Shown here: in pieces, positions 27,411 to 62,148 of the stretch
Layout of the letters: the number at the start of each line of letters is the position of its first letter
Numbering within the stretch: position 1 is the stretch's first letter
DNA from: Capitulum mitella
Lineage: Eukaryota; Arthropoda; Thecostraca; Pollicipedomorpha; Pollicipedidae
Direction: 5' to 3'
Assembly: GCA_030062745.1 (NCBI GenBank)
Contig: CP099846.1
Coordinates: 2,790,001 to 2,854,000, forward strand
Length of the DNA: 64,000 bases
Translations under genes and position numbers: made by a program
Notes under the pieces: generated by a model
What the model saw: the letters and a program-made list of their open reading frames with translations, nothing else
Told to the model about the DNA's origin: nothing
Database searches by the model: none

Positions 27411-27414
27411 TTAA

Positions 27415-28628
27415 CCCTATTCCCGGCAGGGGGGGCGCAATCCGCCCCCCCTTGTGTTTTTTGGTTGCCAATTCCAGGACTTTTAACGCAGCTTCACGAA
27501 ACATGGTGAATTTTCCTAGCTATTCTTTCTACGTGCTGTGACAAAATTTCAAAATTCCCTTTTGCTCAGGGGCGGAGACAGGTAACATTTTTGGGAGGCA
27601 CCTCAGGCGATTTTTGGCCATGTTCAGGGTAAAATAAAAATGTCTGCCAAAAACAGTGTTTTAAAGCTAGAACTTAAAACTTTGCATGGATGTGTAGCTA
27701 AATGGTTGGTCAATGTGCAGATGTAATTTTGTTTATCTGAGGTCATTTTACAAGGTCAGGTCAAGGTCAAAAAGTCAAAATTAGTTTTTTCCCTATAATT
27801 TCGGCGTCGTTTTTCCAAATGCCAAACTCCGAATATATGTGATGTAGAAGGATACCTTCTACTTGTGTACGAAGCTTCAGCTTGATATCAGGTCGGGTCA
27901 CGGAGCCATGACATAAAATGTCACTGCGCGTACCCTATATCGCAATAGCCATAAAATGGAATTTTTGAAATAGAGCAAATTCAAATGGTTGAAAACGTTT
28001 ACAGATAATATTAAATGTACACGAGATCATTCTAAGTGAGCCCAAGGTCACTGGAGGTCATTTTAGGTCAAAGGTCACAAGTTGGTCTGAGAAACGTGTG
28101 ACTGTGACAGTTGCCCCTTTTTCATGTCCCTGGCACCGCCTATGCTAACATTATACAAACATTGTAATGCAATTTGTACTTCTTTAGTATAACATGACTA
28201 GCAGAAGCCAAAAAGGGTGTTTGCCTCTTTTCTTCATTCAGTTGTTAGAAAACTAATCATCCTATTTTTGAAACCCTGTGAACGCGCATGATTTTTTTTT
28301 TAAATTTCAGATTTGCGGAGCCACGATAAAAGCCCTATTCATAATATCTCGATTCATGCCAGTTTCATCGAAATCGGTCCATAAACAACGGAGTTATAAG
28401 AAGTCGAAAAGCACCTCCCATTTTGACATTTTTTCCCCTCTGCATCTACAAATTTCAAAATTTTGAATATTTCTTTCTTTAAAAATGTAGTTAACGTCAC
28501 GGCAAATCGATTGCCGTTTGTTGCGATGAAATCGGACGAGTAGTTCTCGAGATCTCGGGGGGGGGGGCCGAATCCGCCCCCCCCCCTGCCGGGAATCGAC
28601 CATACCGTCTAGCCCTCTGGGAATAGGG
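27415..28628 (+). mobile_element. R3: R-family TTAA element, end of unit 1 core
   Basis: A full-length 1,214-bp R element with TTAA on both sides (27,411-27,414; 28,629-28,632). Hairpins near both ends and a perfect DR1 motif at 28,065-28,077 are present, with TCAAGGTCA at 27,761-27,769. Its left flank equals those of R6 and R7, but its right flank (TTAAGGGAACTGAGC) is unique in the window. Confidence 0.85.
28065..28077 (+). promoter_or_regulatory. Perfect DR1 motif inside R3
   Basis: AGGTCAAAGGTCA, preceded by two further AGGTCA half-sites. Confidence 0.45.
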
Positions 28629-28632
28629 TTAA

Positions 28633-30711
28633 GGGAACTGAGCACACATCTGAAAACCACTCTGTCTCATTTGCTTTGCTTAGTCGCAATTATTTTTCAG
28701 AGCCATTACTGTGAACGTACCTGTAGTACATAAACTGCAAAAGCAAGCCATCCAGACAGATGCCTAAACAAATGAGGGTTATCAAAGTCCCAGGTCCCAG
28801 TCCCAGTCCCAAGAGCATGCAACTAGCATTGTTATTTCAAGAGCAATGTCTTGAGACTGTCGTACGCTTGAGTTTCTAGCTGTGAGAACGCATCAGGTAG
28901 ATGCTATGCGACTTTGGCTACACTAGCAATGCGCTTATTTCACGCAATTAGTAGCGCTATGTCAAGGGCGGATCCAGAATGCCCTTTTGAGATGGCAACG
29001 CCAATTTAGGAGGAGGGGGTGTAAATTCTTTATGAACAGTAAAACAAGTGACCACGGAAGTTCGGTTTGCCTGGCAATATTTAATAAAATGTAACAAATA
29101 CTTCATAAAATCCAACAAAACATATCTGAGACATGTAACAGACGGGAGACTCAGTGCGGTGCAGCACCGGCATATGCGTGATGTATTTAGTTTTTTTCAA
29201 AAAAACTGGGCGTATAGCATATTCCAGTTCATTTAGTTACACATTGAAATGACGGCTTTCAGGATTCGACTGCGGTTTTTTAGATTCAAATTCCAATCTT
29301 CATGGTTTGAACCCTCGTCATCAGGATTCGAGGATTCTGACGATTCGAGTCTGGTCGAGTCTACTCGAATCTTACGAATCCGAATCCTCAGCTCTGGTTT
29401 CCATGTTCGTTGTAGTTCCTCTGCATTTACATATGTTATTTCCGTGTTGCACAATTTAACCTCATCATAACCCTCATAACCTTTATCACCAAAATAATAT
29501 TCTGGGCTTCATGAAGTAAAGAAGTCAACGTCCAAGCAGGAAGATCACTCCAAGGGGGAGGGGAGAGATTGACATTTGAGAACGTTTTGTCCTCGATTTA
29601 AATTGAGCAGAACAGATTTTCGTACACTCTCGTCGCACGCGTAATAATAACGAAGTCAGCACAATGTCTGACCAGTTCCCCCGTACTACATTCATGACTA
29701 GGGATACACCGGATCGGGATTTTTGTGATTCTGCCGAGTACCGAATATGTAGCATCGGCGTACCGGATATCCGACCGGATATCCGGCCGGACACCGAATA
29801 CTATGCTTCCCTATTTACTGTTTACTATTTTTATTGATAAATGGAACGAGAAAGACTAAATTGAGAAAAAGAGTTCTGAAAACTCTAAAATATCAAATAA
29901 AATGCCAACAGCGTGAATCATTCGCACTAGTACCTACACATACCATGAAGTTTCCATAAGTTTCGTTGTAAATAAATAAATAAGTAGATAAATAACACAA
30001 TTATCATGGTAGACCTCACCATCTCTCACTGCATTCAGAGACATGGGTGTAACCACGGTTCAGAAATTAGGGGTAGAGGCAAGCGGCTGCAATCCACCAA
30101 AAATATGTAGGGGAGGGTAGGGTTGAAATCACCTTTTTCGGTCGTTGCATTATAACGTGCGGTTGAAATTTCGTTTTTGGATTTCAGAGTTCAAGAAATT
30201 GTGTCGCCAATGAGAAGTATCTATCTGCTACTTTAAAAATTAGGAAGAAAAATCACCACTTCTGAAAAACTACGTGAGGCATGCCCCCTCAACCCCTCCT
30301 CCGGAGATAACACCCATGGCAAAGGGTCCAGAATACGTAGAATGTCGTAAGAGCGCCTTGGAAAAATCAGAATACCTGGTTTGATACGAATTCTGTATGA
30401 ATACTAAGGTATGTATCTTTAAATGTGTTATCCCTTAATGTATGTGTATCAAAGGATTTGAGGAAGAAAAAAATGTCTGGAAAATAGAAAGATATTACAT
30501 TTCAAAATGGGCTGCTGAGTAGGTTGTGGATGGAAAGAACTTGACATATAAAAGTGATAGGAAGTCGTGCAAGCCCGTAAAAATATTTGACATGCACAAA
30601 AAATAGCAATGAAAACATATCTACCATCCCTACCGAACAAATAAATGTCCCTGTAGATGAAGTACAGTAGCGCCAGCTATAACGCTCTTTCCAAACGGGC
30701 AATTTTGCGCC
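28633..30711. other. Segment present only in unit 1
   Basis: No recognisable gene. It holds CCCAGT-type triplets at about 28,795-28,815 and a GATTCGA/GAATCCG-rich imperfect repeat at 29,260-29,400. A CCGGATATCCGG cluster lies at about 29,755-29,800, and a short TAAA repeat near 29,972-29,997. In unit 3 the corresponding stretch is missing and R7 sits in its place. Confidence 0.6.
30042..30318. mobile_element. Possible small inverted-repeat element
   Basis: CATGGGTGT at 30,042 faces ACACCCATG at 30,310-30,318, enclosing 277 bases with no coding capacity. No clear target duplication is visible, so this may be chance. Confidence 0.2.
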
Positions 30712-31053
30712 TTAAGACTCGGCTTTGCCGTGGCAAACAATCGATAATCGCGTGCGATTTGAATGACACTTTCCGAGTGCGACGGTGCAGTCTGAAGTTG
30801 CGTGACGTGGAGTATGGCAGCGAAAGACAATCAAACGTGGGTGTCTGCCACCTTCCATGCTCAAAATGCTTATTTTTCGTATGAGCACGATGTGATTTGC
30901 CACTACAGGCTTCCAACCATAGCACACAACAGCAGGCCCAAGTGTACGGAAAACGTGGGCGCGACGACGACTTATTTTTTTGTCATCTCGCTTATGCAAA
31001 GACGGGGGAGAGCAGAGGGTTAGGTTTGACTCCAGAGGTGGCAGTAGCATATT
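30712..31053. other. Segment repeated in unit 3
   Basis: Matches 62,145-62,484. Here the TTAA at 30,712-30,715 is uninterrupted (GCGCCTTAAGACTCGG). In unit 3 the same TTAA is the right boundary of R7. No gene recognised. Confidence 0.7.
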
Positions 31054-31056
31054 TAA

Positions 31057-32271
31057 GCTTATTCCCCGCAGGTGGGGCTGAATCTGTCCCTCCTCGGGTT
31101 TTTTGCTTGCCAATTCCAGGATTTTTAACCCAGGTTCACGAAACTTGGTCACTTTTCCCAGCCATTCTTTCTACGCGCCGTGACAAAATTTCAAAATTCT
31201 ATTTTGTTCAGGGGCGGAACCAGACACGTTTTTGGGAGGCACCTCACGCCATTTTTGGCCTTGTTGATGGTAAAAGAAAAATGTTTGCGAAAACAGCGTT
31301 TTTAAGATAGAACTTATAACTTTATATGGCTGTTTAGCCAAATAGGCGGGCAATGTGCAGATGTAATTTTATTCATCTGAGGTCACTTTAAAAGGTCAGG
31401 TCAAGTTCAAGAGTCAATTTTTTAAATAATTTCGGCGCCGTTTTTTTCAAATGCCAAACCCGGAATACGTATGAGGTATAAGGGTGCCCTCTAGTTGTGT
31501 ATCAAGTTTCAGCTTGATATCAGGTCTGGTCACGGAGCTATGACCTAAAATGTCAGTTCGCCTATGCTATATCGCAATAGCCATAAAATTAAATTTTTGA
31601 AATAGAGTGAATTCAAATGATTGAAAACGTTTACAGACAATATTAAATGAACACGAGATCATTCCAAGTGACCCCAAGGTCACTTAAGGGAACTCATTTA
31701 AGGTCAAAGGTCACAAATTGATCTGAAGAACCTGTGACCATGACAGTTTCTCCTTTTTCATGTCCCTGGCACCACCCTATGCTAACATTATAAAAACACT
31801 GTGATGCTATTTGTACTTCTTTAGCATAACATGACTAGCAGAAGCCAAAAAAGTGTTTTTGCCTCTTTTGTTCATTCATTTGTTAGAAAACTAATCCTTC
31901 TATTTTTGAAACCCTGTGAAGGCACGTAAATTTTCTCAAAATTTCAGATTTATGTACCCATGGTAAAAGCCCTATCCATATTCTCTCGATTCATGCCAGT
32001 TCCATTGAAATCGGTCGAAAAACAACGGAGTTATAACAGGTCGGAAAATACCCCTGATTTTGACATTTTTGGCCCCCCCCTCCTGTATCCATATATTTTA
32101 GAATTGTGAGAATTTCTTTTTATAAAATGCAGTTCACGTCATGGGAAATCGATTGCCGTTTGTTGCGATGAAATCGGACAGGTAGTTCTCGAAGATCTCA
32201 GGGGGGGGGGGGTCGAATCCGCCCGCCCCTGCCGGGAATCGACCATACCGTCTAGCCCTCCGGGAACAGTG
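31057..32271 (+). mobile_element. R4: R-family TTAA element
   Basis: A full-length copy starting after TTAA (31,053-31,056) and ending CCGGGAACAGTG before TTCA, a decayed TTAA. Perfect DR1 at 31,701-31,713. Its left flank equals that of R8, so the two are the same ancestral insertion. It abuts R5 directly. Confidence 0.8.
31701..31713 (+). promoter_or_regulatory. Perfect DR1 motif inside R4
   Basis: AGGTCAAAGGTCA at the family's usual position. Confidence 0.45.
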
Positions 32272-32275
32272 TTCA

Positions 32276-33467
32276 CCCAATTCTCGGCAGGGGAGGGGCT
32301 GAATCCGCACCCCCCGGATTTTTTGTTTGCCAATCCCAGGGTTTTTGATGCAGTTTCACAAAACTTGGTGACTTTTCCTAGCCATTCTTTTCACGTGACG
32401 TGACGAAACTTCGAACATTCTATTTTGTCCAGGGACGGAGCCAGGCAACGTTTTTGGGAGAAACCTTAGACCATTTTTGACACTGTTGAGGGTAAAAGGA
32501 AAATGTCTGCCAACAACAGCGTTTTTGAAATACGACTTAAAACATTATATGGAATGTACAGCAAAATAGTTGGGCAGCGTGCAGATATAATTCTGTTCAT
32601 CTGAGGTCACTTTACAACGTCAGGTCAAGGTGAAAAGTCAAAATTTGGTTTTATAGTAATAATTTTGGCGCTGCTTTTCAGATGCCAAACCCAGAATATA
32701 TATGACGTGGAGGGGTGCCCTCTCCTTGTATAACAAGTTTCAGGTTGATATAAGGTCGGGTCACGGTGCCATGGCCTAAAATGTCAATGCGCGAAACCCG
32801 ATATCACGACGGCCGTTAAATGGGGTTTTAGAAGTACAGCAAATTCAAATGATTGGAAACGTTTTCAAACAATATGAAATGCACTCGAATCTGTGTTACC
32901 CTAAGGTCAGTGAAGGTCATTTAGGGCCAGGGGTCGTAAGCTGACCTGCTGAAAATGTGACCATTACAGTTCCCCTTTTTCATGTCCCTGGCACCGCCTA
33001 TGCACAATGTAGAAACGATGTAATGCGATTTGCACTTGTTCAGCATAACATGACTAAGAAAAACGAAAAAAAATGTTTCCCTATTTAGTTTCGAAAAGGT
33101 AATCGTACAATTTTCGAAACCCTGTGAACGCCCATGAATTTTGTCAGAATTTGATATGTGTAAACCAACAGTAAACGTTCCATCCACAACCTTCTCGATT
33201 CAAGCTAATTTCATTAAAATCAGCTCATTAACAGTAGAGCTATGACAAGTCCAAAAACATCCCCCATTTTGGCTTTTTGCCTCCTGTATGCACAACCTTC
33301 AAGATTCTGAATGCTTCTTTTTATCAAAATGCATTTCACGTCGCGGCAAATTGATTGCCGTTTGTTCCAACGAAATCGGAGGTGCAGTTCTCGAGATCTC
33401 GAGGGCCGAAACCGCCCCCACCCCTGCCGGCAATTGGCTATACCGTCTAGCCCTCCGGGGAATAAGG
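32276..33467 (+). mobile_element. R5: R-family TTAA element, R2a subgroup
   Basis: Starts CCCAATTCTCGGCAGGGG immediately after the TTCA that ends R4, and ends GGGGAATAAGG before TTAA (33,468-33,471). It shares subgroup features with R2a and has no intact DR1 (AGGGCCAGGGGTCG there). Its partner in unit 3 is R9. It forms the boundary between units 1 and 2. Confidence 0.8.
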
Positions 33468-33471
33468 TTAA

Positions 33472-33730
33472 CACAGGGCACGTGCCCTTTCTGTGTACGC
33501 TCCTGGGTACATCGTTAATCGAATGGATTATCGATGTAGTTTAGGTTACAGATTATAGAGCACTCCTGGCTATAAATATATAGCCATGAGTAATAATATA
33601 AACAGGAGCAATATACATAAATAGATAATCAGAACGATAAGAAGTTTTTATGAGCGATAAAATACCAGGTGTTGATATGAAAGGATTCTCAAGACGATAG
33701 CACCTGCACAAAGTAACAACCAACTGACCA
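33472..33730. other. Short unique linker
   Basis: No gene. A small hairpin around TGGCTATAAATATATAGCCA lies at about 33,568-33,587. Confidence 0.5.
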
Positions 33731-34100
33731 TCAGGTGGACTGTCGGCCGCTCATGCAGGTCTTGAGCATGTTTCCAACGTCTTGACTGGCACGCTCAGCG
33801 CTGCCCTGGCTCTTCGGATGTCTGGTTCTTCCATGGAGTATCTGGCACTCTGGCCATAGTAGCGCCAGGTCTTTAATCACTTCTGCCACAAAGTCTCTGC
33901 CGTTGTCTGATTGCAGGACTCTCAGAGAACCCACCAACAGGAATATTTTCAACAACTCCGTGGCAACTTTTCGGGCTCTCTTGGTATGTAGCGGGCGCAA
34001 AAAGAGGAATTTTGAGGCATGATCCTGGTAGCTGAGGAGCATTTGGAGTCACCATCACTGGCACTTTGCACGTCGCTTGAATCAACCTGACCTCTGCTGT
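33731..34100 (-). pseudogene. KRBA2-like/Ginger-like integrase core fragment
   Basis: The minus strand carries an rve-type integrase core. It reads YQDHASKFLFLRPLHTKRA, then LRVLQSDNGRDFVAEVIKDL with the second catalytic Asp, then WPECQILHGRTRHPKSQGS-AERASQD with the catalytic Glu. The first catalytic region (VD...SDVQSASDGD) lies just upstream on the same strand in another frame (about 34,050-34,090), so the gene is frameshifted. It ends near 33,731 without the downstream C-terminal cysteine cluster, a piece of which survives at 10,193-10,687. Non-functional remnant. Confidence 0.7.
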
Positions 34101-34933
34101 GGGGTCCTTCGAGATGTAATTGGCTTCAACACCAGTCCTTTATTTCCAATCGCATCCTTTGACTAACAAAAGCAGCAATATTTGTCGAACACGCTCATTG
34201 CTGGCCTAGGTATGATAAGCTTTTTTGGATGGCATGGAGCATTTTACCCCTGCCTCCGTGACCTGTTTTTCTATAGTGGTCTTAAACAGTGTCGTGGAAG
34301 CTTTCGTAAGCAGCCGTGTACCAAATTCCTTCCTTATTGTGCATGCATGTGGTCTTAGACCCTCCAGTATTTTCCGTTGATTTTACAGGGAGATGAGTAA
34401 AGTAGATTAGAGATTGCCAGAAAGTAAAGAATAAAGTCTTAAACGATGTATTAATTTTTAAGTATTAGACTCTGCATCCGCCACTGCTCCAAAAACTGCT
34501 TTCAAGCATGTCTTGAAACTAACAAAAGACCAAAAAGTTTTATTAGAGCAAAAGCAGGAACGTAGCCAAGGCGGTCTACGTTAGATATATAGCGATTGCG
34601 CAGGAATATGGAAATGATCATACACATATTGCCAAAACAAAAATTGCATGAATGCCTGATGATAAAATATAAGGTTCACTGCATAAGATTGTTGCCTTTT
34701 CTCATAAATTTCACCAACTGGCAGTGCCATATGACAAAATTTGGAAATTCGATATCCAGCCTCCCCCTCTGAGAAAAATTTTGGCAATGTGCCTGAGTCA
34801 AAGTACGTGCGTGCAGCGCGGTATGCCAGAAGATGTAAATCAGCCGTCCACCTCCTTTGTGCTCCCCTGAAGACGTTACTGGCGTTTTGGCACTGGTGAA
34901 TAAATGAAGTTGGTTCAGATCGCAAGCTTTCGT
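34101..34933. other. Unrecognised duplicated segment
   Basis: Counterpart of 13,600-14,452. Nothing recognised. Confidence 0.45.
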
Positions 34934-34937
34934 TTCA

Positions 34938-36261
34938 TCTTATTCCCTGCTGGGGTAGGGCGCATTCTGCCCCTCCCCTCCGGTTTTTCGCTCGCAATTT
35001 CCGGACTTTTGGAAACTGTCGAACGAAACTTGGCAAATTTTTGTAAACATGTTTTGGAAATATTGCGCCAAATTTCAAAAATTTGCCTTTTCGAGAGGCA
35101 GTTCCAGAACACGCTTGCTGGGGATCGCGCACTTCGACGTGGTCATGTGCTGTTTTGATGCCATTTATAATGTCACAAACAGGTCAAATGATTGAAATAT
35201 TTGCGGCTGGCACATTTTCAAGTTTTTTTTTTGAAAGTGCTGATCAATGGTGGATCCAGGGGCATGTAAACCATGGTATGAGTTTTTTTTTTACTTGTAA
35301 AAACTTATGAATAAAACAAAGCTAAGTTATGATATAGACATCTGCATCTTAATTTGCGCATATAGTTCACGTACACTTATATACTGCAAGGGGCGTATAT
35401 CGGTTTTAGAGTGCATATTTCGTCTAATGACGTGTTCAGTGGGCCAAACATGTGTGACTGGTGTTGTAAGCCCCACGTGTACTACGATCAAATGCCATTC
35501 ATTTCAGCGAAAAGAAAAACTAGAGCCGGTATCAGGATAAAGTCAAAAGGGCATTTTATTTCCTCTGATTGCTGAGAAATTTTTACTCGACCTAGGGAGT
35601 AAAACACAGCTATCACCATATACATCTTGGCCAGTCTGTTTTCGGTACATGGATCCGCCTACGAGGATCTGTGATATGTGTATATAATACGGCATGTGAC
35701 GCAAATAGCAATGTTTTTCAAACAAAAATAAGCTCACCAGACTCAAAATATGTTCGGGAATTAATTAACATTTCCCAAAACGTGTGTCCCTTTTTATGTG
35801 CCCTGGACACGCCTATGAATTTTGACTGACCTTTTTCTAACATATGTGATAGACCTGTCAGTTTTCAGTAGAATGACACGAAGTAGAACAATGTCAGTCG
35901 TAAAATGTGGTAAGAAAACTGGTATAGGTAAACCCTCCATTCATATCTTCATTTTGACCCTTATCCTTCTTTCCTAAATTTTTAATACTTCTTTTTGGAA
36001 ATGTTTATATCGCTACAGGTTATTAAACGGTTTTCGAAATCACAGGACCAACGGCTTTCGAAATCACAGGAGGGAAGGGGGGGGGCAGAATTTCAGCACG
36101 GAATCGTACGTAATGGGCAGGAGCACGGACCAAGGTTAAGCCTTGTTTTGTCGTAATCGGTTTTGTAAACCGGGAGATCTTGGGGAAGGGCTGGGGGGAG
36201 AGGCGGGCGAATCGCACACCCCGCATAGACTTGAAACAAAATCTACCGCATGAAAATAAGG
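34938..36261 (+). mobile_element. Q2: Q-family TTAA element, unit 2
   Basis: Counterpart of Q1, 1,324 bp. Starts TCTTATTCCCTGCTGGGG after TTCA and ends AAAATAAGG before TTAA (36,262-36,265). Small internal deletions relative to Q1 lie near 36,020-36,080. Confidence 0.6.
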
Positions 36262-36265
36262 TTAA

Positions 36266-38578
36266 GGGACAAAAACGCTAAGAAACTCCACTGTGGTCTT
36301 TTACCTCCTGGATATGACACGTGCTGTTTGCTTTTGCTCGTGCATGATCTTACACGATTGCATGTTCAGTTTCCTGGGGCGTGATATCCACTTCGAGCCT
36401 TTCTTACCCTGGGCTGCCGATACAGCTTGTTGGAAAAAACACTGTTTTGACCAAGACTGATATTTTTTTTACGAGCCGGCCTCAGGTCTCAGGACAATGC
36501 ATTGGCCTCAGACCATTGAGATAGTGTTCCAGTTAGTTTATTTGAGTGTGAGCTTAGCCAATCAGCAAGTGATAATTTGCCTGCGGAAAATTGGTTTAGG
36601 ATGTGCAGCCGTACAAAAACATGAACTGGGATAGAACCACAATAATATACGATTACTGTTTGCATTGTTATTGAGCACAAAATCAGTGGCTGCACATCTG
36701 GGCAACTTCCATTTTAAAAAGTTCACGGCCTCTACATGATACTGAAGTGGAACCGATAAGAGGTTCGTGAATGGGTGCATGATCCCCTTCCAGGCGGCGT
36801 GACACACGAACCGTGGGCCGGAGGCGTGTGGTTCTCGGTACAAACGAAAGCCAGTTCATTGTGCTACACCATAGCGCTTTTCACAACACGACACACAACA
36901 CGCTGTGGTCTCTGATCACCAGCAATACACTGAGTCCTGGAAAACGCCCACAGAAACGGCCTTTTCGCATTCCATCACATTGCGCGTGGTATGTACCGCA
37001 TGCACTGTAAGATAGTGTGCACAATACGATTGCTTGTCACATGAGACCACTTTTTGATCAAAAAGTGGCAGAACCCGTCCGTAACACAAAATGCCGAAAT
37101 ATTGTTGCCTGACCGGACCTGGAAAATAAGACTTTGACCTAACGCCAAACTGGGTGACGTTAGATCCAGAACGTCCCAAGAAATTCACTTTTCTTTGTCC
37201 CGAGACTATCTCATTTAGGAAAGTAACTGCTTAGGGACCCCGAGGTGCGTTCTGGGATGGAGCAATCGCAGTGCGGCCGAGGTTTCATGGAGTATAAAGT
37301 GACGATCCGTCATGCATGAAGACTAGCATTTATCCCTGTTCAAAGCGTTTGCCTTGCCATCTCGCGTACCCCGCACAGTCCCAGATTAAAAGTGGCAATG
37401 ATCATTATTATACAAATTCGACTCACGCGCTTCTATAATGCATTTACTCTGCACCTTCCGCATAGATCACACTAGTAAAATGCTACGAGGTGGTGGTATT
37501 GGGGTTACGCTCATCAATACAAGCGAAGGGACAGCTTTTTCTCAGCAGATAAGTTCCACACACACCGACCATCTTACCCTCTTCGCATGCGCAGGCTTGT
37601 GCTACTTTTCGGCCCCAGGCCCCTAGAGTCTTTCGAGACTTCTCCAGAATATTCTCGTCTTTGGCCAATCGCGCCACTTCCTTCCAGGACTGTGGACAAC
37701 ACAATAAGCATGACTTGATGACTTCAAGACCGTCCTTGGGACAATTGTTTCTAGAAGGCCCACCTTGGAAAGTACCGTCGGTATACTGCAGCAGAAATGA
37801 TCCGATTTAAGTGATATTGGATGCTCTCCCAAAGTAAACAAGTACCCGGACGCCAAGAAAATTGGCCGTGGAACTATAATAAGCACTGCTTACTCGCTTA
37901 CCACACAACTCGAAACAAATCACCTGATTCAGCTGAACAGGAAAAGAGTAAGGATATCAATAAACGCCCATGGATTTACAAACAAAACATAAGGAGTAGG
38001 ATTACAAAAGTGATGTCATCAGAACTGCTGAATGCAGAGAGCACTCTGCGGATGTTATGGGATTAGGTTCAACAATGCACTTACCAGCAAACCATTTGAT
38101 ACTTTCCCCAGCCACCACAGATGGTGCAACCGTCTCTGGCGACAAGCAATTAGGGTGAATTGTCGTGTGCCTGAACATTACGGTCACAAACACTATTCAC
38201 AAAGCGCAGTGCCCAGCACACCAAAGCAGATTTCAGTAACCAATGCATTTATTACAATACCCATTGGAATCATGTTTCTTCAGTGTCTAGTTGTACTTGG
38301 CTGTTGCATGATTTCACCTGTAACTGTTCCTATTCCCTACATGAGGCACAAAAAGATGCAAAAAATAAGTGAGTGAGTAGGCTGTTATTGGGTAGGTAGA
38401 CTGCTACCTACCTCCCTTCGGTAAATATCAGATTGCCAGCATAACTTGACGAAAATAATTACCAGTCATCTAACCTTGGTAAGTAAATACCAAACCTGCG
38501 CCACGTGACGGCGCGCGAGGCGAACCGCACCTGTCAGTCATGGGCAGAAAATAATCACATTGAACTAACTTGAATCAC
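36266..38578. other. Unrecognised duplicated segment
   Basis: Counterpart of 15,798-18,112, with the 22-base palindrome at 37,047-37,068 conserved. No gene called. Confidence 0.45.
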
Positions 38579-41507: not shown

Positions 41508-41515
41508 TATAAAAA
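41508..41515 (+). promoter_or_regulatory. TATA box of cytokine copy 2
   Basis: TATAAAAA lies 54 bases before the ATG in the same GC-rich context as copy 1. The upstream 41,232-41,274 stretch missing from copy 1 is present. Confidence 0.75.
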
Positions 41516-49086: not shown

Positions 49087-49090
49087 TTAA

Positions 49091-50828: not shown

Positions 50829-50832
50829 TTAA

Positions 50833-50847
50833 CCCATTAACACCCAG
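50833..50847 (+). repeat. piggyBac left terminal inverted repeat
   Basis: CCCATTAACACCCAG, matching the other end with one mismatch. Confidence 0.9.
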
Positions 50848-51475
50848 GCCCACTTCCAGCCCTCAAAGTTGTGTTATTTTTTAAGCACACCGACTTTATG
50901 TGCCAACTAAGATTTCCTGAACGTTTGAAACGCGTACCTTTTTTGAATTTCGAGTTATGGCAGGGGACAGAAATGACCCGCTGGGCGTTTGGGACATGCC
51001 AGCGCTGCCGGTGCGGCGTGTCCGTCCACACACCGGGCGGCCGGCCGGTCGGCATTATCCGCAGCGATCCCCGGTTGTCTGTCTGATAATTCGCGTAATA
51101 CCATTTTTACGTTATGTAATTTCGCTGTCTAACCCCGAAGGTTGAAGTTTTTTGTTTCTGACAATATCATAACTCAATAACTCGGTATTCACGGACAAGG
51201 TTTACGTTCAAATCTGATACGTCAATGCACCACACCACGCACTAGTTTTGGCTCGTTATTTCGGTTCTGCACTATTACAAGATCGATGGCTTTACTTACA
51301 ACGTATAATTCCGAGAGCACTACAATGTTCCTGGCACCGTTTTTACTTTCCGCACTCATCGTGCTTGTTCACACTGTGCACATACATTGCGCCTTAGTGA
51401 GCGCGACTTACGTCGGCACACTCGCACGTTTATTTGCTGTGGAAGGGAGAGAAGCATTTGGGACACAGCGCCACT

Positions 51476-52788: not shown

Positions 52789-53352
52789 GGCCTCTTTGGC
52801 CGAAAAAACACTTCATTTCTTGGCATCCCGGGTCACTCTGGGATCAAACGCCGCTGATCCACAATAGAATGTCTCTGCTCACAAACACATACAGCCACCG
52901 TACCGCTCGCTACCCTCGCACTACCGACTGCGTGTTTTCGGTCACGCCTCTCCCCTCCTGTCCGGCCGCCTTGCCACATGTGCGAAACGCCCAGCGGGTC
53001 GTTTTTGTCCCTTCTATATTTAGCGCCATATCATAAGTTAGCGGTCAGGTCAGTTCAATATCTTTCGATGGCTTCATGCTCCCACGTGTTTTGGCTTCTC
53101 GCGCAACACAGATATTCATGTCAGTTCTACACATATCATTACCAGCAATAAGATATGGCCGGCTCCTTCTAAACGCTGCAAACATCGCTGAATTAACTGC
53201 TGCTAATTTCGTTCCCCGATGTTCTGAGAACTCGTTTCCGGGTGAACATGTCTGTCAAGACTTTGGACCTTCCGTCCCCACCTCCACAGCTGATCTTGGT
53301 TCACAGGCCCCGCGTACACAGGCGTTCAAAGCGAGGGGACAAAAATGACCCG

Positions 53353-53367
53353 CTGGGCGTTAATGGG
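53353..53367 (-). repeat. piggyBac right terminal inverted repeat
   Basis: On the minus strand CCCATTAACGCCCAG, directly followed outside by TTAA. Confidence 0.9.
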
Positions 53368-53371
53368 TTAA

Positions 53372-54582
53372 TGTAATGATTTCGGACTGATACAAAAATG
53401 TTTACGTATCAGTGACCAGTTTCCATGTCAAAGTGAAGGAGAACATCATGCCATTTCGGAAAAAGTCCTGTGTCAAATACCGACCCAATATGTTATTAAA
53501 TTTCTGAGAAAGAAGCCAAAACAAGGCTGAGATCTAGAAAAACGGCTTGCAATGTTTAGTGAGGGAAATGAATAAATGATGGGGAGTTAAATCAGCTGAC
53601 ATTTATATATCAGTTTCACATATCCGGAAAACATTGATGAGGAACCATAGTAACGAGCGAAATACGGCGAAAGATTCCGTTTAGAAAAAAATGAAATGCA
53701 AATCCAAATCAAGATTTCGAAAAAAGGCTGAAAATCCATATTTTACAAATCACAGATCTGTTTCTCTCATATTCCCAAGACGTGTTAGCGATACGGAGGC
53801 TTACCACTGGAGATGCTCATCAACAAAGAACACGCTGCTTTTCTGGTTACAGTATTCTTCAATATAGTAGCTACCGCGAAAGCACAAATTGCATTTGCAT
53901 AAAAGCACATATTGTATAAACAAATTTGGCCTCCTCTTAGCTGTCCAAATGAGTCACGGACAATGAAAGCTTTACAGAAGATAATTAACCAGTGACTTCA
54001 GAATGTTTTAATTAGCCGTTTTCGCAATAATGAAATTCTGAACGTGACTAAGTACTGCCTGACATTCTATGGTTCTCAGCCAACAGCATGATATCATGCT
54101 TTAACAACCGCGTACTCATTTTGTCCCCAACAACAGCATATCATATCTATGTGTGAAACATTTCCTCAGCTGCGTAGTTCATGTGCGGAAGAGCATATCT
54201 GCGTCACTGTTCACAAAATCAACACGCTTGACAATGGGCTATCGTATACTGGAGGGTGGCACCTCCGTTTAGAAACCCGTCAATTGTCGGTGAGTGGGGT
54301 TCGGCGAATATTCGGCATCGGGGGATATGGCGGTTTCCGGACGGCAAGAGCGGCCGGCCAGAGCAAGGTCTCGTCACCAGCAAGGGCCATCTGGCGTGGC
54401 GAAGACGGTGGCCTATCTGGCCAGGATTCATGAACGGAAACGGCAGTCGGTAGCGTGACCCGCGCCGTCCGGCGGAAGGCCGCCAGTAGGCGGGGCCTGC
54501 ACCGGACACGCGGCCGCGGCCGCCTCCGCGACGCCTGAAATGCTCGGTGGTTCCCTCCAAGTGCGCGCCGCCGTGACGGCCG
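53372..54582. other. Upstream segment of unit 3, second part
   Basis: Counterpart of 19,862-20,999 with the usual GC rise toward the TATA box. An insertion of about 30 bases near 53,890-53,920 is absent from units 1 and 2. No gene recognised. Confidence 0.5.
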
Positions 54583-54590
54583 TATAAAAA
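54583..54590 (+). promoter_or_regulatory. TATA box of cytokine copy 3
   Basis: TATAAAAA 54 bases before the ATG. Promoter otherwise like unit 2, with a few bases missing near 54,316. Confidence 0.75.
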
Positions 54591-54644
54591 TTCTGGCCGG
54601 CCCGCGGCCAGCAGACAGCACCTGTGGTCCGTCCCGAGTGCGCC

Positions 54645-55208
54645 ATGTTGGCCCTGTCGTCGACGGCCAGGCGTCTGCTGCTCCTGATGGTCGCAGTCCT
54701 TGCGCTGTCCAGGGCCGGGGTGGCCGGACGCTGCGACCACCTGCGAGGCGACATCATTGCCTACATTCACTGCATCACCAAACCTACAACAGGAGGAGAC
54801 GTGCCGGCTCAGCCCAGACGGTCCAGGCGCGCCTCAGCAGAGGTCAGTGAGTGGCAGTGCGCGTCCAACAGCAGCAGCAGCCAGCTGTCTCTGCGCGCCG
54901 TCTGCCCGTTCACTATGGAGTCACGTCAGTTCGGCAACATAGAGCCGGTGCACATGCAGGTGGCCGTCTGTCTGTGTGACAGCGCCACCTCCTGCGGCCG
55001 TGGCATGGAGTGCACACCCCTCAAGACAAATGTCACCTATACGCTGGCCGGCCGGCTCACCACCGACTCGGTGACGGTGGCGTGCGTGTGCGCCGCACCC
55101 TACAGCGGCCGCCAGACAGCCGGCCATCGGGAGCTGGCCGTCTGGGACCGTGTTCACCGGCGGCGGCGGCACCACCAACCTCACCCCCACCACGGCCGAC
55201 TGGACTGA
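54645..55208 (+). CDS. IL-17-like secreted cytokine, copy 3
   Basis: A 187-residue paralogue with all core cysteines, the R-S-R-R site and both sequons. It differs from copy 1 at seven residues (A16V, S29R, L70W, D98N, L142S, P164L, E168D) with nine synonymous differences. It differs from copy 2 at eight residues. L142S lies just before the VTVAC strand and D98N in the loop after CPF. It shares Arg29, Trp70, Leu164 and Asp168 with copy 2, so copy 1 may hold the derived states at those positions. The nearest unusual neighbour is the piggyBac insertion, whose right end is about 1.2 kb upstream of the TATA box, so distal control could differ from the other copies. Confidence 0.75.
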   Translation: MLALSSTARRLLLLMVAVLALSRAGVAGRCDHLRGDIIAYIHCITKPTTGGDVPAQPRRSRRASAEVSEWQCASNSSSSQLSLRAVCPFTMESRQFGNIEPVHMQVAVCLCDSATSCGRGMECTPLKTNVTYTLAGRLTTDSVTVACVCAAPYSGRQTAGHRELAVWDRVHRRRRHHQPHPHHGRLD

Positions 55209-55286
55209 TGACGGTCCACTCGCCCCGCCGCAGAGTTGGCTGCAGCTCGCCCGACGCTCGGCGCAGAGAACACGCACCGCTCGCAA

Positions 55287-55292
55287 AATAAA
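55287..55292 (+). terminator. Candidate polyadenylation signal, copy 3
   Basis: AATAAA 78 bases after the stop codon. Confidence 0.5.
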
Positions 55293-56217
55293 CGGCGAAC
55301 TGGTCGCTGTTCCTGGTACAGACGTCTGCGCTCAGTTGTTTCCGACGAGAACACGAATTGTGGTTATGCTGGTCTATATTTTTCTCACTGTCCAGGTATG
55401 AACTATGTGAAATCGATTGAAGGTGCCCGTCCATGCATCTTGCTACTCCAAATTGTTGTGGGTGCTCACCTCATGTCAAAGTCACAAAACTCCGTCGGCG
55501 TTCAGTCAATACTGGAAGTGCTCAAGCACCCACAAAAATTAAAAAAACTGCACCCATGTTTTGTACATTGTGGCCCACGGACTGCGTACCTTTGCTCATG
55601 CCGTTATGACAACGTGGGCTCGAAGAACACCGTTTGGGGGGTACGGAAAGCCGGTGCCGAGATCTCATTTGTTGCTCCTGCTTTCTAGTGCGCTTGTTGC
55701 TTTTCAGCATGGGGATGATTTTGCTAATGCCTCAGTTGCGACTGGTGTATGAAAGCAATGCCTTTTACTGAAACATCCCGAATATCCGGATCCTGTAGAC
55801 ATGCTTTTTTAAGGACAACTTGTTTTCGACCACTGTCGCATAGCCAGGGTCGTCGATTCCCGTAAATAACTGGCCGGGGGGGGGGGAGCCGAGGACCCGA
55901 TGGCCTAAGGTCCTCCAAATGTGGGTTTTTTAATTGATGTGTCCTACTTTGGTTTGAATAATGGGACTTTATGATTTATATGTCTTTTGTTACTCTTTAT
56001 CTAACGAAAAATTGCATATACCCCCATATATACATGTATATATATAGTGCCAGCTTTTGTTGGATAATTCGTTTTGAAATAAATATTTTTCTGCCGTTCG
56101 TATTTTGTTTATGACATTCTTGACTTACGCATCTCCTTCTGGAAGCGCACAGCTCCGATGGCAGCATTAGCGGCGTCTGTAAGCTTGTTCACGTTACCAG
56201 GTCGTCGGCGAATACAG
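55293..56217. other. Downstream segment, unrecognised
   Basis: Counterpart of 21,710-22,644. No gene called. A G-run near 55,876 and short TA tract near 56,025-56,046. Confidence 0.4.
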
Positions 56218-57389
56218 ACCTGACTATGGATACGGCTACGTCAAAACTCACAAATCAGGACACCCTTTGAGACCGATAATATCTCAGATCCCTATGCCGA
56301 GATACCAACTCGCCAAGAAACTTAACAACCTCCTAGCGCCCTACATGCTCTCCGAGCATTGCCTGTTGTCCAATGATGAGTTCCTACCCATCATAAGAAA
56401 CCACCAACCTTCTGGACTTCTGGTGTCTCTGAATGTAGAGAGTCTTCTTACAAACGTGTCTGCAAAAGAGACCATCGAGCTCACCCTCACGTCAGTGTAT
56501 GACCACCCTACCATGCCTCCACTCAAGGTACCCAAAAACATATTGGAAGATCTTTTCAAGACATGCACGACCGAAGCAGCCTTCCGTGGGTCCAACGGCA
56601 AGTTGTACCGCCAAATGGATGGCATAGCCATGGGGTCACTGCTGGGGTGCCATTGTTGAAATTCGGGATGAAGAACACCTGAAAGTCCTTCAAGCAGCCA
56701 TGGAACAGGGGTCATGCCTGCGCTTCACCACCGAGCTCAGCATGAACAACAACATGGCCTTCTTGGACTTTGATATTCCATAAGAAAATGGAAAACTGAA
56801 GACCAAGGTGTACCACAATCACACAAATCTTTTCCGATGCATGAATGGAGCAAGTGAGTGCCCTCAGCGAACCGGAGCAGTGTCATCCGCTCGTTTATCC
56901 GTAGGACTCTCAAGTACTGTTCCGACTGGACCTCCACGCACGAAGAACTGCAGCCCTGCAAGCGGATTCTCATCAGCAACGGCTACACCAACACCGAGGT
57001 AGACTTGGAAGTCAAAAACCAGATCTCTCAGCATCAACACCGCCATCAAAGACAAGAGCAGCACCACGGCGTAACTCTCTACTACAAAAATCAAATGTCA
57101 CCATCCCACACGACGCGAGAGTGCCACATGACACCATCCTACACGACGCCGTATCATCACTACCGATTTTACTGCACCGAGTCCATCGCCAAGCTTAGCC
57201 TGAGCGTCTGTTACCGAAACGCCGAGGTGGGTGGTCTCATCATGAGAAACATCTCTGAAGAATCGAACCCTCTGAGAAGTACCAGTGTAGTTTACCAGTT
57301 CCCATGTCCATACGAAGACTGACAGCTTCGTCGTACTGAGACTACATTGGTATGGCAACCACGACCCTGTCACGTCGCCTCACGATGCC
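56218..57389 (+). pseudogene. Dead Penelope-like retroelement, copy 3
   Basis: Same fragments and same two catalytic losses as units 1 and 2 (SLNVESLLTNV; no Y-x-D-D). TAA at 56,781-56,783 interrupts the thumb region. This copy preserves the nuclease entry best: SVVYQFPCPYED, with the Cys that is Arg in units 1 and 2, followed by a stop and, after a one-base loss, YIGMATTTLSRRLT. Confidence 0.75.
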
Positions 57390-57886
57390 GCCTTTGGACG
57401 TGCAGCCAACATATGTTCCAAATACACCAACAGCTAAGCCGCGAGGATCTGACGCCGAGCACCAAGATACTCAGATAAGTCAGTGAAAAAAGAAGACTTC
57501 CTGTCACTAAAGCCCTCTTCAAGCTGTGCCAAGCGATGGCGACATGAACACGAGCAGGTGTGCCATAGTGTGAACATTGCCATCCTAATAGCTTGCCCCG
57601 TTAGTAGTGTAACTGTTGAAATGCCTTCTGCATGACAGTGTTTTAACTGTGACTTCATGCTTTTTTATATTTGTATTCTAATTCAGACAGATACATGACG
57701 AAAAATGGTACTTTTGAAAATGGACCAGGCAGATCCGAAACAATGAAGAAGTCAAAAGGAGTTGCTATGAATATTGGAGAACTAATATTTTCTTTATCAC
57801 AGACAAAAAAAAACATAATAGGGGACATCGGGCAGGAAAGAAGGAAGCTTATAAAAGTGCGTTACGTCACTGTGTTCCAGAAGACT

Positions 57887-57889
<3 letters not shown>

Positions 57890-57925
<36 letters not shown>

Positions 57926-57945
57926 GTAAGATATATGTCAGTACG

Positions 57946-57976
<31 letters not shown>

Positions 57977-57984
57977 ATATATAT
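57890..57984 (+). repeat. (TA)n microsatellite, unit 3
   Basis: Two TA tracts around a GTACGTAAG-containing spacer, as in unit 1 but shorter. Confidence 0.97.
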
Positions 57985-58189
57985 CGTGCACTGGACATAC
58001 AGCTGGATATCTGACATTATACGGTATCCATTCTCCGACCGGTTATTCCTGCAGTTCGGCAGGATAATGCCTGGCATTTAGCCTTCCTCCGGTGTACGAT
58101 CGAGACCTTGTTCTAATATCTGCGTATAATACCGTTTCAGTAGCAATTACCCTTGTTATATTAGATTGTCGATGTTGCCGTCGGTCCTG

Positions 58190-58480
58190 CAGCGCCCCGC
58201 CCGTGGGGCGGCGAAGCTCCGGCCGGCCGGTCCGACTGGTCTGCGCTGGCGGTCCGGCACGTCTCGCCAGACCCAGCCGGCCATCTATGTTTGCGCAGCC
58301 TTTGTTCTGCGTGGGGCCGCGACGCCCCGGCCGGCCGGCCGGCAGCCCAGCGCCGGCGGTTTCGCGCGTCTCGCCGGACCCGGCCGGCCACTTCTAACTG
58401 CTTTTACCGTTTGTTCTGTCCCCAAAATACGTCTCCCCTTTATCTCGTGACCTCTTTCGCTCGTACTATATAAGCTTATC
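58190..58480 (+). promoter_or_regulatory. GC-rich block with TATA motif, unit 3
   Basis: Counterpart of 24,640-24,930 with the TATATAAG motif intact near 58,467. Function unknown. Confidence 0.3.
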
Positions 58481-58799
58481 ATGAACACGTCCTCGTTCTC
58501 TTCCTGTCTGGCGCTCAAACTGTTCCGGACGTCTCTTCAATACAGAAATTCATTATCAGTGATGGCGTGCGGCAGTGCAGCGATGTGAAGTGACATATAG
58601 CAAAAAATAGTAGTCCGCCAGCCTCGGGAGATTCCTTTTACCCTCTTCCTGGCCTCCTGAATGGGAGGTCTCCTTGCTGGCTGAACTGCCACTCTAGAGA
58701 TTAGGCCAATCCTGTCCCAGAGCGCCTGAACTGGAGCGTTCCTTGTGCTCTTGAATTGGAGCTCCTGCCTCACCTATACCAGCTTGAATTTGCTCGTTC

Positions 58800-58963
58800 T
58801 TCCTTTCATGCTGCTGAATTGTAACATTCTCGGTTAGGACCCGTATGCCATCTTGAATTGGATGGTTATCCTCTTATGCTGCTGGATTGTAGCATTCTCA
58901 GTTAAAACCGTATACCATCTTGCATTGGATGGTTTTCCTTTCATGCTGCTGAATTGTAGCATT
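58800..58963 (+). repeat. 67-bp minisatellite, unit 3
   Basis: Counterpart of 25,252-25,417. Confidence 0.85.
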
Positions 58964-59504
58964 CTGCGCCTGCTTACCCTGGATTTTCCCACCTAATCCT
59001 CCTTACTTTTCTCCTGAGCCGAGCGTAGCCCATTTAAGTGTCACGGACCTCTAGTGTCGATAAAACATACAGTGCACGCCAGAGCCTTTAGACGGACGCT
59101 AGGCGGTCAGCGATAGTGGATGTAGCTGACAGTTCCAAGATCTGTCTGCAGCACTACTTTTTCTTCTCAGTTCGGGAGGGTTGAGACATTTTTGCAAGGA
59201 TGAAACTCAAGCTCAGAGCTGTAAAATAATATGGAACATGTGCTAAGTAGCCCATTTTGTAGTGTCTTATATTTCTATTCTCCAAACACTTTTATCTTCC
59301 TCAAATACTGTGATAGAAATACATGAAGAGCAATATACTTCAGGAGACGTCCATAAGAAATCGTTCAGGATGTTTGCCATTGCTATCAATATTCTCATAG
59401 TTATCAAGCCAGTGATTTCAATTCTACGAAGGCTCTATCATGGCATTCTGCGTATTCTGAAGCCTTTGCTCGCAGTGTAAAATTGTTAGCTCAGCTATGA
59501 TTAA

Positions 59505-60559
59505 CCCACGAGGCACGATCGTCAGTCGGCTACGATCACGCTCGACTAGGGGTGGGGCGGTTGACCGCCCTTCTCTAACTCAGGGTTCGTTGCACGATAA
59601 AAATTAGAGCATCGTTGGAAAGCTTGTGACGAGGAGACCTCGAAACTGGTCTCATTTTTAGTTCTAGGTAATATGCAAACGATTCACGTCCCATATATAT
59701 TTTCTCATGGCCGACTGCATGAGACCGAGAAACGGCCTGAATCTTAAGGGCTGTGACTAATAACGCATAGGTAAAGGCACCAGCGCACAAGTAAAGGTTC
59801 ATACATGCCGATACACATCTAATTTCTCTGATTTGTCTAATATATACGACGAAACGTTGAGTTAAAGACACGACAATTTTCACGCCGGCTATTGGCGGGC
59901 GCCGCTGGAGAACACAGTAACAAATTAACGGAGCTAATTTCAAGGTTCCTTTATTTTTGCTTCATAAGCCTATCTATTTAAATTTTATCAATCTTAGTGG
60001 TTTTTGTGATGGTTTCTCATGCCTGAATTTTGGAAAAATTCGTTTGTTACCAATCTACACAATTGGCGGGGCTTTACTCGCGAGAGCCTGTTTATTTCGA
60101 AGATATGTATTTTTTAACTTTTTGAGGTTCTTGGTGTGCATTACTTACGTCTATGCAAGCCAGTTCTTCCATTTTCTACCAATTCTGAGCAATTCATCGC
60201 TGATATTCAAGGTGGTATCTTGGCTGTGATATCTTTGGCTTATATATAATTTTAGCTGTGATATCTTGTTTTGCGAAAGGTTAAGGGCGCTGAACTTTTT
60301 TGGACATAGGTCCGTTTGACCTGACCTAAGACCAAAGTTTCTTTAAAGTTAAGACAAAGTTAAGACCACCTCAGGTCAAGTGAAATGTCTGACCTAGGTC
60401 AGACATCTGACTTGACCTGAAGTGAAAACTTTGAAACAAGGTGTACAAATGATAAAGCAAAAGGTACTCGAGGTTTTGAGGCTCTGTGTTTGTTCGTTCT
60501 CTCGCAATCCTAGAAATACCTCAGGGGGCGATCAACTGTCCCCCGTAGTCGGGGGCCGG
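59505..60559 (-). mobile_element. S7: S-family TTAA element, unit 3
   Basis: Counterpart of S5 and S6, after TTAA (59,501-59,504). The terminal C-runs are much shortened, so both hairpins are eroded. The CCTAGG-centred 22-base palindrome is perfect (60,385-60,406). Confidence 0.8.
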
Positions 60560-60940
60560 TAATTGCAATGAGGCCTATGGAGGCCTCACAATAAGTGTAG
60601 GCACTAGAGGAGTGATTCACAACCTATTAATATTTTTGCCTTCAGTATTTTCCATTGTTTCAGATTTTTCTTTCCTTTTTCAGTTCAGTCTTTTTCGCTT
60701 CATTTCTCAGTAAAACAGATGAAAATTGACAAGCAGAATGCCCTGTCTCCGGCCGGAATTCCAGCACCCCTATCTGGTATATCCGGTATCCGGCCGGAGC
60801 ACAAAAATCCCAGCCTGGTGTATTGTTAATTGATACCAGGAGTATGTGAGCCTGGCCATCTTCCAGTCCTATGTACAAGTTTATGGGGTATTATATGGAC
60901 CATCTCACCAGATTTTTTTGCATCACGCACAAGCCTTTAA

Positions 60941-62144
60941 CGCTATTCCCGGCAGGGGAGGCGGAATCCGCCCCCCCTCGGGTTTTTTGCTTGCCAATTT
61001 CAGACTTTTTAACGCAGCTTTACGAAATTTGGTGACTTTTCCTAGCTATTCGTTCTACGTGCTGTGACAAAAGTTCAAAATTCCATTTTGCTCAGGGGCG
61101 GAGCCAGGCAACGTTTTTGGGAGGCACCTCATGCCATTTTTGGCTATCTTCAGGGTAAAATGAAAATGTCTGCCAAAAACAGAGTTTTAAAGCTAGAACT
61201 TAAAATTTCATATGAATGTATAGCTAAATAGCTGGTCAATGTGCAGATGTAATTTTGTTTATCTGAGGTCATTTTACAAGGTCAGGTCAAGGTCAAAAGT
61301 CAAATTTTGTTTTTTTGCAATAATTTCGGTGCCGTTTTTTCAAATGCCAAACTCGGAGTATGTATGACGTAGAAGAGTGCCTTCTACTTGTGTACCAAGT
61401 TTCAGCTTGATATTAGGTCGGGTCACGGAGCTATAACCTAAAATGTCAGGGCGCATACCCTATATCGCAATAGCCATAAAATTAAATTTTTGAAATAGAG
61501 TGAATTCAAATGATTGAAAACGTTTACAGATAATATTAAATGCACACGAGATCATTCCAAGTGAGCCCAAGGTCACTGGAGGCCATTTAAGGTCAAAGGT
61601 CACAAGTTGATCTGAGAAACGTGTGACCATGACAGTTCCCCGTTTTTCACGTCCCTGGCACCACGTATGCTAACATTATACAAACATTGTAATGCGATTT
61701 GTACGTCTTTAGTATGACATGACTAGCAGAAGCCAAAAAGGGTCTTTGCCTCTTTCGTTCATTCAGTTGTTAGAAAACTAATCCTACTATTTTTGATACC
61801 CTGTGAACGCCCATGAATTTTCTAAACATTTCAGATATGCGGACCCATGGTAAAAGCCCTATCCATAATCTCTTGATTCATGCCAGTTTCATTGAAATCG
61901 GTCGATAAACAACGGAGTCATAAGAAGCCAAAAAGTACCCCCATTTTGACATTTTTGCCCCCCTGCATCCACAAATTTCAAAATTTTGAAAAATTGTTTT
62001 GATAAAAATGTAGTTCACGTGCCGTCAAATCCATTGCCGTTTGTTGCGATGAAATCGGACAAGTAGTTCTCGAGATCTCAGGGGGGGCCGAATCCGCCCC
62101 CCTGCCGGGAATCGACCATACCGTCTAGCCCTCCGGGAATAGGG
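60941..62144 (+). mobile_element. R7: R element with a third right flank
   Basis: A full-length 1,204-bp element with TTAA on both sides (60,937-60,940; 62,145-62,148) and perfect DR1 at 61,590-61,602. The left flank equals those of R3 and R6. The right flank (TTAAGATTCGGCTTTGCC) equals the uninterrupted site at 30,712. The 2.1 kb that lies between in unit 1 (28,633-30,711) is missing here. Confidence 0.85.
61590..61602 (+). promoter_or_regulatory. Perfect DR1 motif inside R7
   Basis: AGGTCAAAGGTCA at the family's usual position. Confidence 0.45.
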
Positions 62145-62148
62145 TTAA

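Follow-up and report, generated by a model that had tools for sequence, protein, structure and literature searches.

A stretch of 64,000 nucleotides of the Capitulum mitella genome (contig CP099846.1, positions 2,790,001 to 2,854,000 of the forward strand; hereafter the window) holds a direct tandem array with copies of a small transposon, here called R, at its joins, and the question it raises is whether these joins were made by aberrant transposition of R or by recombination between its copies. An earlier note on this sequence named alternative transposition and unequal crossing-over as the two candidates, which is the right pair, and described the geometry correctly. Its slight preference for the first was not supported. 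Crossing-over is shown at R5, the copy that joins repeats 1 and 2, and for R6 and R7 it is the preferable reading. From comparison of the sequences, it is likely that the array acquired its joints by unequal crossovers among R copies and was then trimmed.

R is only 1.2 kb long, with CCCTATTCCCGG starting each end on both sides in the consensus. Across 14 genome copies, TTAA was found at 26 of 28 ends, with one CTAA and one TAAA. It is very abundant, with 8,945 candidates in a first look at the genome (the best 40 being scored), and it resembles piggyBac-type nonautonomous elements in having TTAA at both ends and a high copy number. R combines the TTAA target duplication and inverted ends by which the piggyBac superfamily is recognised, and it is presumed to be a nonautonomous, MITE-like element of piggyBac type; the superfamily placement is putative because TTAA is also the target of Kolobok elements.

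The layout of the array was established mainly by self-BLAST of the window and windowed identities, and all features named are on the forward strand unless stated. The left boundary is R2a (11635..12394), recognised by its match to R5 and truncated after about element position 745. It is followed by R2b (12392..13373, reverse strand), an inverted truncated R delimited by self-BLAST and junction sequence, whose left end sits on the TTAA where unit 1 begins. The unit 1 body (13370..27410) contains an internal site, i, at TTAA 18113-18116, and self-BLAST aligned unit 1 with 33873-49090 at 94.2% identity, R included. Next comes R3 (27411..28632) at a site called e, then a segment (28633..30711) that is missing behind R7 and for which self-BLAST of the window gave no alignment reaching 150 bp. 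The right-end segment (30712..31052) starts from site t (TTAA 30712-30715) and is 93.5% identical to 62145-62483. It leads to R4 (31053..32275), which by position and windowed identities was co-duplicated with R8, the two serving as the control pair. R5 (32272..33471) joins repeats 1 and 2, and the start of repeat 2 (33472..33872) is absent from repeat 1. Part of this start belongs to an integrase-like open frame (33734-34048, reverse strand) that spans TTAA 33873, with an rve match of E=0.0055, below Pfam's cut-off. The unit 2 body (33873..47877), in which site i is empty (TTAA 38579-38582), is followed by R6 (47878..49090), unit 3 (49087..60936, from the internal TTAA i by self-BLAST and junction sequence), R7 (60937..62148), a second copy of the segment from t (62145..62483), and R8 (62484..63700), placed by its flanks and windowed identities. 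The right boundary is R9 (63697..64000), which the sequence beyond the window extends to 64883. Unit 3 contains a 2.5-kb piggyBac-type insertion, and a PF13843 transposase present in this unit lies inside an element whose ends differ from those of R. Each unit also carries an open frame weakly resembling interleukin-17.

The true duplication join is R5, which the earlier note overlooked. R2a and R9 form the left and right boundaries in the same orientation, with R5 between the repeats, and R5 is a mosaic of the two, its first 348 bp being R9-like and the following 392 R2a-like. Maximum chi-square analysis (190 sites, 122.3, 0/500 permutations) placed the crossover between element positions 348 and 354 (32619-32625 in the window); 84 of the 97 informative sites to the left are R9-like, and 87 of 93 to the right are R2a-like. 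Positions 1-348 are nearest to R9, at 90.8% against 83.9% for the next of the other 71 R copies compared. For positions 354-745, R2a is the sole close relative among the best 40 genome matches scored (95%, the rest at most 82%), while 103 of 348 sites differ over the left 350 bp of R2a. The divergence is 8.9% for R5-R9 and 2.8% for R5-R2a, which would imply differing ages for a single event and counts against this reading. Because R5 is R9-like on the left and R2a-like on the right with a single internal switch, it is a product of unequal crossing-over, and the flanking of the array by R2a and R9, with R5 joining the repeats, is the arrangement expected of ectopic (non-allelic) homologous recombination.

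R3, R6 and R7 are full-length and TTAA-bounded, and share a left flank, as had been noted, ending in CAGGCCT, GAGGCCT and CAAGCCT, respectively, before the TTAA; these flanks differ by 3.5-4.2% across roughly 1.49 kb. It was confirmed that the right flank of R3 is unique in the window, that the right flank of R6 begins exactly at the TTAA equivalent to 18113/38579, and that the right flank of R7 begins exactly at the TTAA equivalent to 30712, leaving out 28633-30711 (2,079 bp). The alignments of 18113-19861 with 49087-50832 and of 30712-32576 with 62145-63999 start at the TTAA bases, and since they are kilobases long chance is no issue. Sites i and t are uninterrupted elsewhere, as claimed, in window units and in outside copies. 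For site i this holds in units 1 and 2 as well as each of the four outside matches listed; for site t it holds in unit 1 and also in five listed outside matches that extend to it, another 33 listed matches spanning roughly the first 125 bases of the query and no more. Among the matches listed for this one assembly, no R was found at site i or t. The empty site of R3 occurs at no fewer than seven other places, where the two flanks are separated by 4-17 bp and no R, and among the matches listed (best 40 scored) the right flank of R3 continues the left flank genome-wide. R3 is therefore an ordinary insertion, flanked by native sequence left and right, and R6 and R7, with the left flank of e and the right flanks of i and t, are derived joins. 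The description of the three copies as marking duplication joins is imprecise, as R6 and R7 may equally represent two deletions in an existing 20.5-kb array.

R6 and R7 look mosaic, though less cleanly than R5; sequence comparison favours an R3-related part of about 360 bp followed by a part that behaves like unrelated copies. Identity-by-descent scores left and right of position 360 were +12.0 and -32.3 for R3-R6, +3.0 and -32.9 for R3-R7, and +4.9 and -38.6 for R6-R7, against background averages of -21.4 and -34.3 (1,431 pairs, of which only 21 exceeded +3 on the left). These scores replaced a first likelihood score that treated private changes unevenly. The best switch points of these comparisons were 384, 369 and 340, with wide intervals. 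At family-variable sites, the trio mismatched at 32 of 201 on the left (P=0.041 among 24,804 random trios) and at 91 of 396 on the right (P=0.67; random trios 21.7%), and the model-free contrast between the two sides gave P=0.026. A quick tree also grouped the left parts as a single clade (SH-aLRT 79.6). On the right, R4-R8 mismatched at 16 of 130, with R4 and R8 at 18% against their own subfamily, and the right halves of R3/R6/R7 each exceeded the R4-R8 mismatch (one-sided Fisher p 0.009, 0.020 and 0.028). Rare states shared by R4 and R8 numbered 23 at first, a count inflated by a missing subfamily; with four subfamily copies added there were 14 at a limit of at most one other copy and 17 at a limit of two.

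To the earlier note R3, R6 and R7 looked by eye like one lineage along their whole length, and the markers given do not demonstrate this: the right marker, CCACAAATTTC, is the family consensus, R3 reading CTACAAATTTC, and among 37 other copies the C in AAGCTAG (position 257) is present in 17. The mosaicism named there as pointing to recombination, in which R6 and R7 take their right halves from different R lineages, largely appears to be present, although there are contrary signals. On the left, the highest mismatch among the three pairs is within the usual range (P=0.087), and unanimity counts against 37 background copies vary with the chosen cut, the right part looking shared at 250 or 300 (P 0.014, 0.022) and the left at 340-380 (P 0.004-0.009). 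Neither R3 nor R7 was among the best 40 matches of the R6 left third. Two further comparisons were set aside. Raw divergence was dropped as a lineage test: R3/R6/R7 differ by about 10% against about 4% in the flank, but R4-R8, co-duplicated by position, are likewise 9.8% apart, so that R may simply diverge faster. Nearest-neighbour rank was also rejected, with R3 and R7 outside the best 40 for the R6 right half and the control R4 outside the best 40 of R8.

The main competing explanation is alternative transposition of the hybrid-element or reversed-ends type, in which the element at e would retain its left flank and its right end, after pairing with an end of a neighbouring R or on a sister chromatid, would enter TTAA i or t. 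On this account R6 and R7 would each be a copy of the entire e element. The new joints fall exactly on TTAA, at 49087 and 62145, as this predicts, yet a crossover with an inserted R would leave such a joint just as readily. In a maize reversed-ends case, too, one flank is shared and the other is new (PMC3744419). R3 and R6 share four rare right states (630, 914, 1024 and 1069), a level of three or more being reached by 0.26% of background pairs (n=1,540), and state 630 is common to all three copies. The 10% divergence in R4-R8 is compatible with one co-duplicated lineage, and for the right part an AU test did not reject an R3+R6+R7 clade; the constrained tree there even had the better score, owing to a poor quick search, and quick trees and AU tests are uninformative for this part. 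Against this stand the right two thirds of R3/R6/R7, which mismatch like unrelated copies at about twice the R4-R8 level, and the right scores of -32 to -39, where simulated same-lineage pairs never fell below +8 (600 simulations). An internal crossover such as that of R5 is unattainable by end transposition. Alternative transposition is thus considered unlikely.

Independent entries of R into site e of each unit after unit duplication, with later loss of the right flanks, are less probable still. Another copy of the old repeat in which R3 sits does have R at the exact same TTAA, in opposite orientation, and in all three pairs of R3/R6/R7 it is at the left end of R, not at 360, that divergence steps up, from about 4% to some 10%. 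However, the left parts score as related, all three copies have a single orientation, and the right flanks still demand additional events. Gene conversion, by which the right part of an R3-lineage R6 and R7 was overwritten from other R copies, would suit the alternating R3-R6 signals on the right and the low linkage among variable sites in the family sample (r2 averaging 0.05-0.10, depending on the distance class), but it needs separate conversions that spare the left part plus transposition for the joints, and is very improbable. Weakest of all is misjoining across 90%-identical copies of the abundant R, which would mimic mosaic elements with swapped flanks, since the window is without N, contigs are chromosome-scale, unit segments differ by 1.3-5.1% and so are not collapsed copies, and R is merely 1.2 kb.

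Under the favoured reading of ectopic recombination, the right-boundary R (R9 lineage) crossed over with the left-boundary R (R2a lineage) near position 350, as R5 shows, giving the 20.5-kb tandem repeat with mosaic R5 at its join. R copies that entered the last repeat later, at i and t, would then have recombined with the R at e, leaving R6 and R7 as mosaics, with losses of about 9.9 kb (as suggested by the layout of unit 1) and 2.1 kb. For R6, the alternative is that the 9.3-kb i-to-e segment was duplicated reciprocally. Joints exactly at TTAA do not call for a transposase during the rearrangement, since they would be the ordinary ends left by the insertion of partner elements that are now lost. 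By our own estimate, it is unremarkable for a single repeat to have gained extra R copies at i and t, since R is dense in the 124 kb examined.

The closest parallel is inversion 2z3 of Drosophila buzzatii, where chimeric copies of Galileo with exchanged target sites lie at the breakpoints, informative sites bracket the crossover, and the authors excluded hybrid-element insertion by the test that is applied here (PMC2775673). The present locus shares the chimeric copies, swapped target sites and bracketed crossover, but it is a direct tandem array with deletions rather than an inversion, its element is a TTAA element where Galileo belongs to the P superfamily, and a single locus still contains the parents of one event (R9, R2a) along with its product (R5). 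The reversed-ends transposition of Ac/Ds and hAT elements in maize likewise yields a second element with one shared and one new flank, but here R5 is an internal mosaic and R6 and R7 look mosaic; genomic element pairs in maize are 95-96% alike and retain 8-bp target-site evidence (PMC3744419), whereas the fixed TTAA of R allows no such test. Among the papers listed from a limited literature collection on TTAA or MITE elements with duplication or recombination, no title or abstract opening concerned this locus. The process is of a kind already known, not a new mode of transposition, and its preservation is unusually good.

Transposon-joined tandem duplications are often assigned to homologous recombination or aberrant transposition without proof. 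At this locus both parents and the recombinant are retained and the crossover is placed to 6 bp, so that the origin of the repeat is directly readable, and it is evident that an exact TTAA joint alone is no evidence for a transposition event. Arrays can be built, and probably pruned, by a single family of dispersed elements. The crossover in R5 (348-354) and the R6/R7 switches (384, 369, 340) all lie near position 350, where R has an AGGTCA-like repeat tract, and on this ground an internal hot spot of recurring crossovers might be proposed, a doubtful idea at present; linkage across the sampled R family shows no break at this position. If such a hot spot were real, an abundant transposon family would steer where the genome duplicates and deletes.

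The array comprises three units (13370–28632, 33873–49090 and 49087–62148) whose compared segments are 94.9–98.7% alike, and the unit and join coordinates in the earlier note proved correct. The window corresponds to C8:2790001–2854000 in a genome of 477 Mb in 16 contigs, and flanking sequence was examined as well, 20 kb on its left side and 40 kb on its right. The repeated R is a noncoding TTAA element of 1.2 kb, the consensus of which reads TTAACCCTATTCCCGG at both ends, a feature shared with piggyBac-type elements, and we infer its superfamily to be piggyBac-type. A genome search with R3 (27411–28632) gave 8,945 first-look candidates, and the best 40 scored contained 39 full-length matches besides R3 itself, with 89–91% identity. 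Two sibling copies, on contigs C2 and C7, were only 1.4% (left part) and 3.2% (right part) apart, scoring far closer than the remaining pairs of the sample, and possibly represent a recent hop.

The joins at R6 and R7 were rightly placed in the earlier note, while that at R5 (32272–33471) had been overlooked. R5 differs from R9, the R copy at the array's end (63697–64883), at 31 of 347 positions over its first 350 bases and at 93 of 392 thereafter, with the reverse seen against R2a, the truncated R at the left boundary (11635–12394; 103/348, then 11/392). Among 190 informative sites, 84 of 97 on the left were R9-like and 87 of 93 on the right R2a-like, with the switch lying between positions 348 and 354, a result reached by none of 500 permutations. 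The nearest to the left part among 71 other R copies was R9, and over positions 354–745 the sole close relative among the best 40 scored genome matches was R2a (95%, the runner-up being 82%). R5 and its parents stand at the positions that an unequal crossover predicts. Its halves imply unequal ages, 8.9% on the R9 side and 2.8% on the R2a side, for which conversion between units is a likely cause, since units 1 and 2 are mostly 97–99% alike over 16370–20358 (one short window being 95.9%) and 92–97% alike in most other windows; this stretch looks like a conversion tract.

R6 (47878–49090) connects the left flank of R3, at the TTAA designated site e, to an internal TTAA (site i, equivalent to 18113 and 38579), and R7 (60937–62148) connects the same flank to the TTAA at 30712 (site t). 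The earlier note had slightly preferred alternative transposition and proposed aligning the R copies to seek a crossover in R6 and R7; this alignment favours a switch near position 360, with contrary signals remaining. R3, R6 and R7 were set against 54 other copies, comprising genome copies picked by likeness to R3 (34 of its 39 matches) or to the right half of R6 (18 of 30 loci, the remaining 12 being R6, R11 or copies already taken with R3), plus R11 and R12; the partial or other-type copies R0, R2a, R2b, R5, R9 and R13 were excluded. The common-descent likelihood score was positive left of 360 for all three R3/R6/R7 pairs and strongly negative beyond, where it matched that of unrelated pairs. 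The co-duplicated control pair R4–R8 scored +14.4 (left) and +39.5 (right). As this control belongs to a different subfamily, same-lineage pairs were simulated at equal divergence, with a minimum right-hand score of +8 in 600 simulations, a somewhat optimistic figure as hypermutable low-frequency sites were not modelled. Model-free counts agreed in direction with modest P values. The best switch points were 384, 369 and 340, with wide intervals (215–396, 148–380 and 148–372, respectively).

Other signals count against a switch in R6 and R7. R3 and R6 have four rare right-hand states in common, the state at 630 is confined to R3, R6 and R7 among the 66 rows with a base there, and trees did not reject these three as one clade. 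A left score above 3 was also found in 21 of 1,431 background pairs, so that of a lone pair is unconvincing; three positive pairs adjoining one shared flank weigh more than a single pair. The largest left mismatch within the trio was not unusual (P = 0.087), the outcome of a coarser count moves with the chosen cut, and the divergence step sits at the R border and not at 360. Because of these signals, the reading of R6 and R7 as mosaic products of crossing-over is graded as favoured and not as shown.

A crossover between direct R copies would duplicate or delete the intervening DNA and leave one R with one flank from each parent. Both flanks would begin at TTAA because each parent is a normal insertion, and such exact joints would require no act of a transposase. 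R6 and R7 would require R copies at i and t within the last repeat; their present-day lack is expected, as crossing-over consumes them. R6 could have arisen either by loss of ~9.9 kb from an array of three repeats or by duplication of 9.3 kb, and unit 3 is equidistant from units 1 and 2. Ancestral states of the three sites were taken from outside copies, each list being the best 40 scored candidates. Site i was uninterrupted in four other copies and site t in the five other copies reaching it, among the matches listed. The flanks of e form part of an old repeat; in at least seven other places its left and right parts are separated by 4–17 bp without R, and R3 is thus an ordinary insertion. Another copy of this repeat (C3:186190–187470) carries an independent R insertion, oppositely oriented, at precisely the TTAA of site e, which may therefore be a hot spot.

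At the left end of the array, 11635–13373 (R2a and the inverted, truncated R2b) has two R left ends at its outer edges and a fold mid-way, and appears to have arisen through deletion between a pair of opposed R copies, trimming the left end of unit 1. This would also have cut an integrase-like frame that remains open in unit 2 (33734–34048, minus strand). Unit 3 carries a 2.5-kb insertion (50833–53367) with TTAA at either side and ends unlike those of R, its site being empty in units 1 and 2; two overlapping reverse-strand frames within it match PF13843 (E 5.3e-40 and 1.6e-19), the piggyBac-type transposase domain. A frame in each unit (22610–23083, 43111–43587 and 56183–56659, plus strand) looks like a Penelope-type reverse transcriptase, although neither of the two copies tested matched any Pfam profile at E ≤ 5. 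Each unit also has one open frame (21005–21625, 41513–42133 and 54588–55208, plus strand) with an interleukin-17-like stretch (PF06083, E 0.09–0.29, below Pfam's cut-off), covering profile positions 2–80 of 81 in all three. Judged from these frames, an IL-17-like gene may have been raised to three copies by the array.

The closest case found for alternative transposition is reversed-ends transposition in maize (PMC3744419). For crossing-over, the closest precedent found is Galileo of Drosophila, for which the same argument is used (PMC2775673), and the locus is a further example of an already known process.
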